Source: Acidobacteriaceae bacterium (lineage in GTDB: Bacteria; Acidobacteriota; Terriglobia; Terriglobales; Acidobacteriaceae). From it: DNA of 64,000 nt. A program made the position numbers and the translations under genes. Under the pieces are notes generated by a model. That model was given only the letters and a program-made list of their open reading frames with translations. It made no database searches and was not told where the DNA came from. How positions within the stretch are numbered: position 1 is the first letter of the stretch; every line of letters begins with the position of its first letter. The stretch covers positions 310,001-374,000 of the forward strand of contig JAOAPC010000024.1 of assembly GCA_025462735.1 (NCBI GenBank), given 5' to 3'. Shown piece by piece: positions 3,718 to 32,023 of this stretch.

Positions 3718-3960
3718 GGCACGTCTTTAGACGTGCCGCAAAGTCTTCCCCAAAAGACAAGGCGGCCTCAGCCGCCAGATTCGCGGGCTCCAGCTGGACG
3801 AACTCCCTCATGGGCTAAAGCCCACTGTCCAGTTTGTGGCTGATCGGCACGTCTGAAGACGTGCCCTGATACAACCTTGAGGAAGTCCTGCACAATGTCG
3901 GCACGTGCCCTGATACGACCTTGAGGAAGTCCTGCACGAGAATGTCGGCACGTGCCCTGA
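3718..3960. repeat. Palindrome cluster with a tandem duplication
   Basis: Two copies of a GGCACGTCT palindrome lie at 3718-3737 and 3846-3865. Between them are a GGCGGC/GCCGCC hairpin at 3761-3776 and a GGGCTAAAGCCC palindrome near 3810-3823. A 44-47-base unit starting GTGCCCTGATAC is repeated in tandem at 3861-3904 and 3905-3951, followed by nine bases of a third copy. No coding is seen here. This resembles REP-type intergenic repeats and accounts for most of the gap between the carrier gene and the next gene. Confidence 0.8.
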
Positions 3961-29266: not shown

Positions 29267-32023
29267 ATGCTTTCGGACGCGGTCATCCTGAAAAAAATCC
29301 AACGTCAGCCGAAGCAGGCTGCTGGATACAAGCAACTAGTGCGCGAATTAGGGCTGCACGGCAATGAGAGGAAGGAACTCTCCGGCCGGCTGCAGAAAAT
29401 GATCTCTGGCGGCCAGCTGGTAAAAATGGATTCGGATCGATATGCAATCCCGCAAGCGGCAACTGCTAGCGGGAAAAACTTGATCGCCGGAAAACTAAGC
29501 CTTCATCGCGACGGGTTCGGTTTCGTTATCCCTGATCTCGCTTCTGCTGCCCCTAATCTGAAAGGCCGGCTCTCCGGAGACATTTTCATTCCGCCGCATG
29601 CGGTGGGCTCGGCGATGCACGGCGATCGCGTGTTGGTTGAAGTCACTAATATCCGGGATGACGGCAGGGCTGAGGGACGCGTTTTGCGCCCGATAGATCG
29701 CGCTCATCCTACAGTTGTGGGCATTTTTCACCACGGCTCACGGCAAAATTACGTCGTCGCTCTTGACCAGAAGATTTCGCAGCAGATTGTCATCCCACAT
29801 GGAATGGAATATCCGGAGGGAACGGATCCGTCGTCGGTCGTTGGCCGTTCGTCGTTGGCAAAAGCGCAATCCGCAGAAGTCGGCGCAACAATCGCTGAGA
29901 AAGACACGGCGCGCAGGAGAAAGGTTTCGCCGGCGACCAATGACGAACGGCCAACGACGGGCTCTTCCAGGCACCGTGTGCTGGGCGAAGAAGTCGCCCG
30001 GCGGGATTGGAGTGATCTCGAAAATGTGGTGGTCGACGTTGAGATCACCGACTGGCCGACGGCAACGCAAAATCCGCGCGGCCGTGTCGTTGAAATTTTG
30101 GGCTACGAAGATGACTTCGGCGTTGACGTTGAGATCATCATTCGCAAGTACCATCTGCCCCATCGCTTTCCTGCCCAGGTGTTGACTGAAGCCGAAGCAA
30201 TTGAGCCAATCATTCCTTCTGCCGAGATTCGCAAGCGACGTGATTTCCGGGACCTCCCAATTGTCACCATCGATGGCGAAACTGCTCGCGATTTCGACGA
30301 CGCCGTGCTGGTGCAACGCCTGGAAAACGGCAACTACGAATTGCAAGTTCATATTGCCGACGTTGCCCAATACGTTCTGCCCGATACCGCGCTCGATCAG
30401 GAGGCGCGGCTGCGCGGAACCAGCGTTTACTTTCCCGACCGTGCCGTCCCCATGCTACCGCTCGAGCTTTCGACCGACATTTGCAGTTTGCGGCCGCAGG
30501 TTGATCGTCTGGTGATGTCATGCCTCATGGAGATTGACAATCGCGGTGAGATCGTCGGATACCACATTTGTCCTGGAGTGATCCGTTCTGCTGAACGCAT
30601 GACCTACACCGCGGTGAAGGCTGTGCTCGAAGGCGACGAATCGTTTCAAGCAAAGTACGCAGGGTTGGTGAAGAACTTCGAACTCATGCGCGAGCTGGCA
30701 ATGATTCTGAACCGCAAGCGCGAGCGTCGCGGCTCCATTGACTTTGACTTGCCAGAGCCAATGATTGAATTTGATGAACTCGGATTGATGAAGAGCATCA
30801 CGCGTTCGGAACGCAACATTGCGAACCGCATCATCGAGGAATTCATGCTTTCGGCGAACGAGTGTGTTGCCGGATATTTGGAAAACAAGAGATTTCCTTC
30901 ACTCTATCGTGTCCACGAAAAACCCGATGCCAAGCGCGTGTACGACTTCGAAGTGATCGCCGCGACCTTTGGATATTCGCTCGGCGTCGGTCCTCTTCCC
31001 ATCCAGCGTGTGCAGTTCAAAAGTGATCGCCGCTCCAGCTATGGAACAGGAAAGCGCGCGCGGGAAGTCGAGATTCCGAAGGAGGTTCACATCACTCCCC
31101 GCATGTACCAGAAGCTGACCGAGAAGATTGCCGGCAAGCCCGAGGAGCGGATTTTGTCTTACCTAATGCTGCGCTCGCTGAAGCAGGCGCGGTATTCAGA
31201 AGAAAATCTCGGGCACTTCGCGCTGGCGGCGACGACTTACACGCACTTCACTTCGCCGATTCGCCGATATCCGGACTTGATCGTGCACAGAATTCTTAAA
31301 GATGTGCTGAGAGATTCTCCGGAGAAATGGGATGGAGAAGTGCCCATTGGGAGTCTTTCCTCAGGGCCTAAAGGCCAACATCCACCACCCGATGACGCGG
31401 CGCTGAAGCGCCGCTCTTCCACGGTCGACCACTCATCTGTTCACAGCTTGGAAGAGCGGCCCTTCAGGGCCGCGCCAACGGAACACAACAGGAAAGGCGT
31501 TTTGGCCCCTGAGAACTCGTGGCCGGGGCGGCCGCGCCACACGGACGCTGCTACCCCCTGGTCAAAGCGCCGCGAGCGCGAGCAGGTTGAACTTTCTGAA
31601 GGCCCCATCTCACTCGACGAACTTCATGCCATTTCCGAAGAATCGAGCCAATCGGAGCGCCGCGCTGATGATGCGGAACGCGAGCTGATGGAGTGGAAAA
31701 AGGCGAAGTTCATGCAAGACCGCGTCGGCGAGGACTTCGACGGTCTCATTATTAGCGTCACGAAATTCGGCTTCTTCGTCGAACTCACGGACATGTTCGT
31801 TGAAGGGCTGGTTCCCCTCAACACCCTTATCGATGATCGTTACACGTACCACGAGAACACACGCGAAATTATTGGCCAGCGCTCGCGCAGGACATTTCGG
31901 CTGGGACAAAAGGTGCGCGTGATCGTGGACCGGATTGATCCGGTGGAAAAAAAGATCCAGTTTGCATTGTTAGAAGAAGTGAAGCCACCTAGAACCAAGC
32001 ACAAAAAGCGATTACGTATCTGA
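29267..32023 (+). CDS. rnr: Ribonuclease R with two unusual insertions
   Basis: This 918-residue 3'-5' exoribonuclease degrades structured RNA. It has a winged-helix head (about 1-65), cold-shock/OB domains, the RNB catalytic domain (about 320-680, with the acidic site RDFDDAV and SPIRRYPDLIVHRIL) and a C-terminal S1 domain (about 830-905). Two low-complexity stretches interrupt it. One at about residues 189-231 lies between 22-base inverted repeats (29837-29858 and 29937-29958), and one at about 695-764 carries several palindromes (31365-31473). Both keep the frame. It is longer than most RNase R proteins. The start has only a weak ribosome site. Confidence 0.93.
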   Translation: MLSDAVILKKIQRQPKQAAGYKQLVRELGLHGNERKELSGRLQKMISGGQLVKMDSDRYAIPQAATASGKNLIAGKLSLHRDGFGFVIPDLASAAPNLKGRLSGDIFIPPHAVGSAMHGDRVLVEVTNIRDDGRAEGRVLRPIDRAHPTVVGIFHHGSRQNYVVALDQKISQQIVIPHGMEYPEGTDPSSVVGRSSLAKAQSAEVGATIAEKDTARRRKVSPATNDERPTTGSSRHRVLGEEVARRDWSDLENVVVDVEITDWPTATQNPRGRVVEILGYEDDFGVDVEIIIRKYHLPHRFPAQVLTEAEAIEPIIPSAEIRKRRDFRDLPIVTIDGETARDFDDAVLVQRLENGNYELQVHIADVAQYVLPDTALDQEARLRGTSVYFPDRAVPMLPLELSTDICSLRPQVDRLVMSCLMEIDNRGEIVGYHICPGVIRSAERMTYTAVKAVLEGDESFQAKYAGLVKNFELMRELAMILNRKRERRGSIDFDLPEPMIEFDELGLMKSITRSERNIANRIIEEFMLSANECVAGYLENKRFPSLYRVHEKPDAKRVYDFEVIAATFGYSLGVGPLPIQRVQFKSDRRSSYGTGKRAREVEIPKEVHITPRMYQKLTEKIAGKPEERILSYLMLRSLKQARYSEENLGHFALAATTYTHFTSPIRRYPDLIVHRILKDVLRDSPEKWDGEVPIGSLSSGPKGQHPPPDDAALKRRSSTVDHSSVHSLEERPFRAAPTEHNRKGVLAPENSWPGRPRHTDAATPWSKRREREQVELSEGPISLDELHAISEESSQSERRADDAERELMEWKKAKFMQDRVGEDFDGLIISVTKFGFFVELTDMFVEGLVPLNTLIDDRYTYHENTREIIGQRSRRTFRLGQKVRVIVDRIDPVEKKIQFALLEEVKPPRTKHKKRLRI
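29837..29958. repeat. Inverted-repeat element inside rnr (insertion 1)
   Basis: Two 22-base arms at 29837-29858 and 29937-29958 are reverse complements with one mismatch (21 of 22) and are rich in GTCGTTGGCC words. Together with the 78 bases between them they encode a Ser/Ala/Lys-rich segment with no match to the RNase R fold. This is the pattern expected of a small repeat element sitting in frame within a gene. Confidence 0.8.
31365..31473. repeat. Palindrome array inside rnr (insertion 2)
   Basis: Three palindromes follow one another: GGCCTaaAGGCC (31365-31376), GCGGCGCTgaAGCGCCGC (31397-31414) and GCGGCCCTtcAGGGCCGC (31456-31473). CCGCTCTTCC (31411-31420) also pairs with GGAAGAGCGG (31450-31459), giving one larger cruciform. 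This is the build of a paired REP element, here translated as a linker just after the RNB core. Confidence 0.85.

Follow-up and report, generated by a model that had tools for sequence, protein, structure and literature searches.

The 64,000-nt stretch of DNA analysed here, referred to below as the window, lies on contig JAOAPC010000024.1 of an Acidobacteriaceae bacterium (assembly GCA_025462735.1; a 4.36 Mb draft in 24 contigs) and carries on its forward strand, at positions 29267-32023, the gene rnr, which encodes an RNase R of 918 residues. This identification is based on the open reading frame (ORF) call, the domain content, the match to solved RNase R chains and a score of 747.4 bits against the RNase R equivalog model TIGR02063 (cut-off 597.85); when the organism's own genome was searched for RNase R, rnr was the sole match. 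The Pfam domains OB_RNB (residues 75-141), CSD2 (255-302), RNB (324-682) and S1 (818-900) account for the OB/CSD1, CSD2, RNB and S1 set of the family, and the RNB aspartates D336, D342, D344 and D345, invariant in an alignment of 56 sequences, are presumably the catalytic aspartates of RNase R. The gene is confirmed as encoding an intact RNase R with two in-frame segments derived from repeats, and the expressed protein would be expected to be active.

The two repeat-built segments of rnr

The first segment (site 1; 29813-29971, plus strand) is a hypervariable loop of residues 183-235 that, judging from the Pfam bounds and the strands of the structural model, probably lies within the CSD2 domain, ahead of the remainder of the second cold-shock domain. 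Its DNA contains a left array of four TCGTTGG-type heptads at 29830-29858 (plus strand), read as SSVVGRSSL, and a right array of CCAACGA-type units at 29937-29959 in the opposite orientation (minus strand), read as TNDERPTT, the whole forming a convergent array pair of the layout (TCGTTGG)n...(CCAACGA)n. Peptides of this kind occur at heptad arrays because the array reads SLVVGRW in all forward frames and PTTNDQR in all reverse frames. We do not regard openness in six frames as special, 50% of all 7-mers being open in this sense. The arrays furnish an inverted repeat with arms of 22 nt (29837-29858 and 29937-29958) that are complementary at 21 of 22 positions (95%) and spaced by 78 nt, and the RNA fold of the site reaches a z-score of -5.4, none of 200 dinucleotide shuffles being as good. 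The 21/22 match was also rejected as a distinctive feature, since the heptad consensus yields the same match and swapped partners fit equally well (permutation value 0.84 for own versus swapped partners among 20 pairs genome-wide).

The second segment (site 2; 31310-31621, plus strand) is a hypervariable linker between the RNB core and S1, spanning residues 682-785 and 104 residues long in this protein. A small palindrome, GGCCTAAAGGCC, can be read at 31365-31376. It is followed by two copies of a hairpin similar to the repetitive extragenic palindromic (REP) elements, which we term REP-A and which has the form GTGGAAGAGCGGC-NNTNNANN-GCCGCG: copy 1 at 31396-31422 (minus strand) matches without mismatch, and copy 2 at 31448-31474 (plus strand) has 1 mismatch and is inverted with respect to copy 1. 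Together they form a larger cruciform whose 33-nt arms (31389-31421 and 31449-31481) are 88% complementary, are spaced by 27 nt and contain two perfect 8-bp hairpins (31397-31414 and 31456-31473). A possible third REP-type remnant, CGTGGCCGGGGCGGCCGCGCCACAC, was noticed by eye at 31519-31543, where it encodes PGRPRHT; it resembles CGCGGGCGAGGGCGCCCGCGCCACAC, which adjoins a transposase gene at locus L278 (also by eye), and a peptide related to PGRPRHT is found at the same rnr position in the genus members G003 and G004. The predicted RNA fold of site 2 has a z-score of -6.8, again with 0/200 dinucleotide shuffles as good. An Rfam scan returned one sub-threshold match (mir-1460; E 0.024, 30.2 of 74 bits), which we treat as chance.

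Both sites were delimited by linker length in relatives, by model confidence and by the gap that they leave against RNase R chain 8cdu, which we take to be B. subtilis RNase R. In that comparison the aligned blocks break at query residues 178/256 and 682/785, between which 8cdu has 11 and 14 residues, respectively. The AlphaFold model of the protein, with a mean predicted local distance difference test (pLDDT) score of 80.0, falls below 50 at residues 187-233 and 699-773 and elsewhere only at residues 64-68; both repeat segments appear to be disordered and to lie in loops. The original prediction, which proposed two palindrome-built in-frame insertions in rnr and suggested that they act as tolerated linkers, is thus borne out by the 21/22 arms, the 33-nt cruciform, the folds that surpass their shuffles and the genomic copies described below, and, as to tolerance, by the disorder at both segments in the model, the short connections in 8cdu and the hypervariability of the linkers. 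Its description of the insertions as REP-like holds for the hairpins of site 2; site 1 is a heptad array and not a REP, and the two families are unrelated.

Dispersed repeat families of the genome

Copies of the elements of both segments were found in the genome, most of those examined lying outside genes. The heptad pattern gave 73 genome matches at no more than 3 mismatches, overlapping registers of one array being counted separately, against 1 for a reversed-pattern control, so that tandem 7-nt units occupy many dispersed positions as is characteristic of dispersed heptanucleotide repeats. Within the stretches fetched, 39 heptad clusters were defined at no more than 5 mismatches: 20 convergent pairs, 11 single forward arrays and 8 single reverse arrays. 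The number of pairs varies with the mismatch limit (9, 15 and 20 at 3, 4 and 5 mismatches), and no divergent pair was present at any of these limits. The clusters fall outside called genes in 24 cases, across a gene edge in 5 and within a called gene in 10, and those outside genes or at edges are frequently a few bases from a stop codon or near a start. Five of the ten in-gene clusters occupy true interiors of conserved genes (rnr, rsmH, mnmG twice and an error-prone polymerase), three lie in N-terminal extensions and two are apparent chance matches (weak single matches with 5 mismatches in genes, at position 133 of L189 and 4659 of L194, are of this kind). Eight clusters first marked as inside genes were reassigned as intergenic from their positions in N-terminal extensions; in four of them (L181, L186, L189 and L204) the family matches of the protein start at about the end of the cluster or later, and the other four (L185, L187, L194 and L205) were judged by eye. 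As a separate observation, the TrpF protein of L186 (1748-2545, minus strand) has an extra mid-protein stretch that splits several family matches.

The interiors of the heptad pairs range from 13 to 130 nt. Mutual comparison of the 18 of 20 that are at least 20 nt long revealed no shared match above 11 nt between different interiors; by eye, 10 of the 20 finish in TTTG or nearly so and 5 start with CAAA or nearly so. We therefore rejected the notion that the pairs are miniature inverted-repeat transposable elements with a conserved interior, the interiors being unrelated and that of RsmH consisting of native conserved sequence. Heptads were detected in 26 of 60 family genomes, the organism's own included, and in 14 of 199 genomes of the phylum. 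Period-7 tandem repeats in unselected flanks (361 kb) showed a small excess only, with four runs each at lags 7 and 14.

REP-A gave 13 genome matches at no more than 1 mismatch and 0 for its reversed control; 48 matches were counted in the relative G013, and the element was found in 12 of 60 family genomes (own included). Called genes contain three of the 13 copies, the rnr pair included, and REP-A is, as REPs are, a short, dispersed and mostly intergenic palindrome. Its number is modest beside the more than 100 copies usual for REPs (PMC2817692). The loop-side stem pairs of REP-A change together within the genome (GC/GC, CC/GG, CA/TG and TC/GA), and the stem therefore matters, in DNA or in RNA. 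The ends of eleven copies were read, namely the two in rnr and nine from loci L207-L211 and L213: GCGTC stands at the end of four of them, and GCGTG, GCGTA, GCGTT, GCGCA or GCGCC at that of the others.

Twelve matches to PF01797, the Y1 tyrosine transposase family that includes the REP-associated tyrosine transposases (RAYTs), are present in the genome (L275-L286). Inspected by eye, eight of these loci (L275, L276 and L278-L283) hold at least two alike hairpins, of families that differ between loci. The RAYT gene of L281 is flanked by GGTGGAGCAGCGCTTCAGCGCTGC, a hairpin similar to REP-A yet different from it, which is the nearest case, and five loci (L278-L280, L282 and L283) carry GGCACGNCTNNAGNCGTGCC, termed REP-B. 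REP-B has 67 sites in the genome, of which about 59 were examined, a figure that was reached with de-duplication by context and may be off by a few; 9 of the sites examined are in called genes, of which 7 are in conserved genes and two are ambiguous, one at the end of a RAYT ORF (L282) and one at window positions 3718-3737. This last hairpin falls in what was called as an N-terminal extension of a small protein but is probably intergenic, and a neighbouring REP-B hairpin lies at 3846-3865, about 110 nt away. Genes are avoided by both families: true interiors of conserved genes account for 5 of the 39 heptad clusters and called genes for 9 of the about 59 REP-B sites, although the same gene caller assigns 82% of the window to coding sequence.

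Recurrence in RNase R of relatives and in other conserved genes

When the protein was aligned with its homologues, most of these were seen to lack the segments of the query and many to hold other repeats at the same positions. The site 1 linker varies from 8 to 54 residues in 69 sequences, the query having the longest; at site 2 the range is 10 to 216 residues (72 sequences). Set aside before counting were L113, four distant non-acidobacterial homologues and partial sequences without a flank of a site, and linkers below 30 nt were dropped, leaving 132 of 141. Linker DNA matched DNA outside rnr in 30 of the 132 (15 for each site), compared with 5 of 660 core controls, for which five pieces of equal length per linker were taken from other parts of these genes. 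The background for this test was 0.42 Mb of unselected non-rnr DNA; an earlier background included loci picked by the window's own repeats (41/132 versus 6/660), and the unselected version was used instead. Perfect hairpins of at least 8 bp were found in 21/132 linkers and 1/660 controls.

Individual families recur at the same sites. REP-A is also present at site 2 of L071 and L101 and REP-B at site 2 of L080. Within the genus, the query shares its REP-A pair with G003 (the same-genus sequence L120 carries the REP pair), G004 (L088, identical in sequence to L158) has a REP-B-like repeat at site 2 instead, and the rnr of G006 has no clear REP-A copy, the stretch GAAGAGCGCAGCCCTTGCATGGGC being possibly a decayed one (by eye). 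Heptads occur at site 1 in L087 (identical to L157, from genus member G002), and a short heptad match at site 1 of L068 may be chance. Both RNase R sites are, as far as the compared sequences indicate, recurrent landing places in the family. Two further RNase R genes deserve mention: in that of the acidobacterial metagenome-assembled genome (MAG) palsa_309 (L082:3001-6018) the site 2 linker between RNB and S1 carries, in frame, a domain of the inorganic pyrophosphatase family (PF00719, residues 714-814), and in L113 the frame is split into two ORFs in a MAG contig.

The presence of two elements in one housekeeping gene, which had been singled out in the original prediction, was confirmed but is not an isolated case. 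Eight further conserved genes, rsmH, mnmG, mnmE, pheT, dnaG, modC, moaA and that of the error-prone polymerase, carry repeats in frame, as had been proposed for an element family able to enter genes without breaking their frame, and with rnr the insertions extend over nine unrelated conserved genes. Part of the protein sequence of this organism thus seems to derive from genomic repeats. Heptads or REP-B are read in frame in RsmH (L176), at two loops of MnmG (L195) and in the error-prone DNA polymerase (L199), and REP-B in PheT (two copies), DnaG, MnmE, ModC and MoaA (L295, L310, L319, L322 and L323); DnaG holds a heptad peptide in addition to REP-B. The gene names are backed by NCBIfam and Pfam. 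For MnmE one model gives 379.1 (cut-off 380) and another 355 (cut-off 252.6), and MoaA scores 280.5 against 284.05, its ORF start having been called too late, with the N-terminal part continuing upstream in frame. In the error-prone DNA polymerase (L199:1730-4999, minus strand), repeat-like peptides other than the heptads, AFSTQHS and SSFEFRVSNSTARNLKPETGN, were also noticed by eye.

Two of these genes repeat the pattern of RNase R. The MnmG of L195 (1969-4248, plus strand) has one linker composed of several repeat types, namely a REP-B hairpin, another hairpin and heptads, and a second heptad insertion near its C-terminal domain; the corresponding loop in another genus (L251) also holds a REP-B hairpin, and that of L248 is without a repeat. 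In RsmH (L176:1868-2833, minus strand) heptad arms stand at the same two positions in six species of two genera (L215-L219 and L221), although those of L218 have decayed. The sequence between the arms is native and conserved; it reads WPxIELRHGSF in the query and is also present in homologues without arms, for example as DWPQITLLHGSF in L222. In a seventh species, G007 (L220), other heptads occupy both positions, with GGCTTCA-type units at the left one and CCGACGA-type units at the right one. As the arms surround a native conserved stretch, the RsmH pair is not a closed element that was inserted whole.

Origin of the segments and relation to known repeats

With copy number, location bias, the open frame, model disorder and recurrence in relatives all observed, both segments of rnr are very probably explained by the insertion of repeats, with selection sparing those that keep the frame and are tolerated. 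The segments would be translated members of multi-copy repeat families whose other copies are found mainly outside genes. The REP-like hairpins of site 2, of a type associated in this genome with RAYT (Y1 tyrosine) transposase genes, would have entered the linker between RNB and S1 as two inverted copies, and at site 1 a convergent heptad pair would have come to occupy the loop that precedes the remaining part of the second cold-shock domain. Insertions may occur broadly, most of those in genes being lost, and those that keep the frame in loops able to lengthen harmlessly would persist and drift; the loops of RNase R, like those of MnmG and RsmH, would then be recurrent landing sites in this bacterial family. 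The neighbourhood of the RAYT genes and published work on REPs and RAYTs suggest that REP-A is mobilised by a RAYT, and the linker peptides are probably neutral. Segments conserved at the protein level across the phylum, with no genomic copies of the palindromes, were looked for and not found.

Several points weigh against this explanation. REP-A lacks the constant GTAG/CGTC tag of the published REP superfamilies, and no RAYT gene flanked by REP-A itself was found among the 12 PF01797 loci. For 102 of the 132 linkers the small background used contained no matching DNA; moreover the homologues are related, and the linker counts represent related sequences and not independent events. Finally, genes were called with a simple, purpose-made caller.

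For the heptads we consider, tentatively and as the less probable course, that they are a new kind of dispersed repeat, one that would install a convergent array pair around existing DNA, conserved coding sequence included, rather than inserting as a closed element. This idea arises because all 20 of 20 pairs are convergent, their interiors are unrelated and native conserved sequence is enclosed by the RsmH pair in all six species, and because G007 has other heptads at the same two RsmH positions. If true, pair installation would force the host sequence into a long stem-loop, and the rewriting of protein loops would be a side effect.

The strongest alternative to repeat insertion with selection for tolerance, though an improbable one, is that the hairpins are kept for a role in the mRNA, where an internal stem-loop would slow translation or block 3'-5' decay and perhaps let RNase R control its own message. 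Such a role would account for the very stable folds of both rnr sites and of RsmH (z -5.0 to -6.8), and every heptad pair is convergent, none divergent. It would equally suit the paired changes in REP-A stems, but these would also result from a transposase that requires the hairpin. The RsmH arms fit their own-species partner better than those of other species (permutation value 0.011), yet this test comprises six related species with kinship uncorrected, and the 20 heptad pairs genome-wide show no own-partner preference. In addition, an 8-bp hairpin is absent from 111 of the 132 linkers, and the hairpins present in the others are often unrelated. Conservation across relatives does not support this possible role in the mRNA. 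That the segments are ordinary low-complexity linkers resembling repeats through chance or composition is scarcely credible: hypervariability of both sites in close relatives would agree with it, but against it stand the near-exact matches at multiple places in the genome, for which the reversed controls were clean, and linker frequencies far above those of the core controls taken from these genes, and for rnr it is refuted by the genomic copies. Equally remote is an assembly error or a decaying gene gathering repeats, an explanation invited by the draft state of the genome and contradicted by the single open frame of 918 residues, the high equivalog score, the invariant aspartates, the lack of a second genomic match and the same REP-A pair in the rnr of G003, a separate assembly.

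Palindromes in frame within many unrelated conserved genes are already known from the Rickettsia palindromic elements (Ogata 2000, 2002, cited in PMC10969869), to which the present repeats are alike in being read through as extra peptide. The likeness is one of kind and not of sequence: the Rickettsia elements are about 150 bp long with a conserved peptide, whereas short REP-type hairpins and heptad arms are found here, in a soil organism of another phylum and with copies mostly outside genes. A 2013 survey (PMC3733652) described GTAG/CGTC REPs in ORFs, including genes for DnaE2 and RNA-binding proteins, and a recurrent REP position in recB of two Xanthomonas. Our case shares with these the inverted REP dimers in ORFs, DnaE2-type polymerases and RNA-binding enzymes among the targets, and the presence of RAYTs; it differs in that REP-A is without the constant tag, and RNase R is not named in the section of the survey that was consulted.

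Two other kinds of repeat invite comparison. REPINs, or REP doublets, consist of two inverted REPs with a spacer and are mobile with a RAYT, and the cyanobacterial short tandemly repeated repetitive (STRR) sequences are dispersed tandem heptanucleotides like the TAACTGA repeats. Unlike REPINs (PMC3116915), the heptad pairs have interiors that share no sequence, that of RsmH being native coding sequence. TAACTGA heptamers form direct repeats in Beggiatoaceae, Cyanobacteria and Bacteroidetes, most of them between genes and some within ORFs, which then code for a repeated heptapeptide (PMC4679880); one indirect repeat is given there against 169 direct sets, whereas TCGTTGG often forms convergent inverted pairs (20 of 39 clusters). 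TCGTTGG is moreover open in all six frames, and TAACTGA has stops in its forward frames. In the open-access papers searched we found no report of TCGTTGG repeats or of insertions in acidobacterial RNase R, and a 15-mer of the repeat was likewise without a match. What is new here is the setting, the repeated use of the same landing sites within one bacterial family, and the arms built of heptads; in-frame palindromes as such were already known.

In-frame palindromic repeats are best known from Rickettsia and intragenic REPs from other species, and an acidobacterium of a soil lineage adds nine genes to them. For annotation, the finding is a caution that linker peptides such as VEERPFRAA, EGHDFSRAE and NDQRPTT are genomic repeats and not domains. 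As the loops of RNase R and MnmG have been struck by different repeats in relatives, the family offers a natural map of the core-enzyme loops in which added peptide is tolerated, which in one relative amounts to a whole pyrophosphatase domain. It also provides a system in which to ask whether mobile repeats are a source of new protein sequence.

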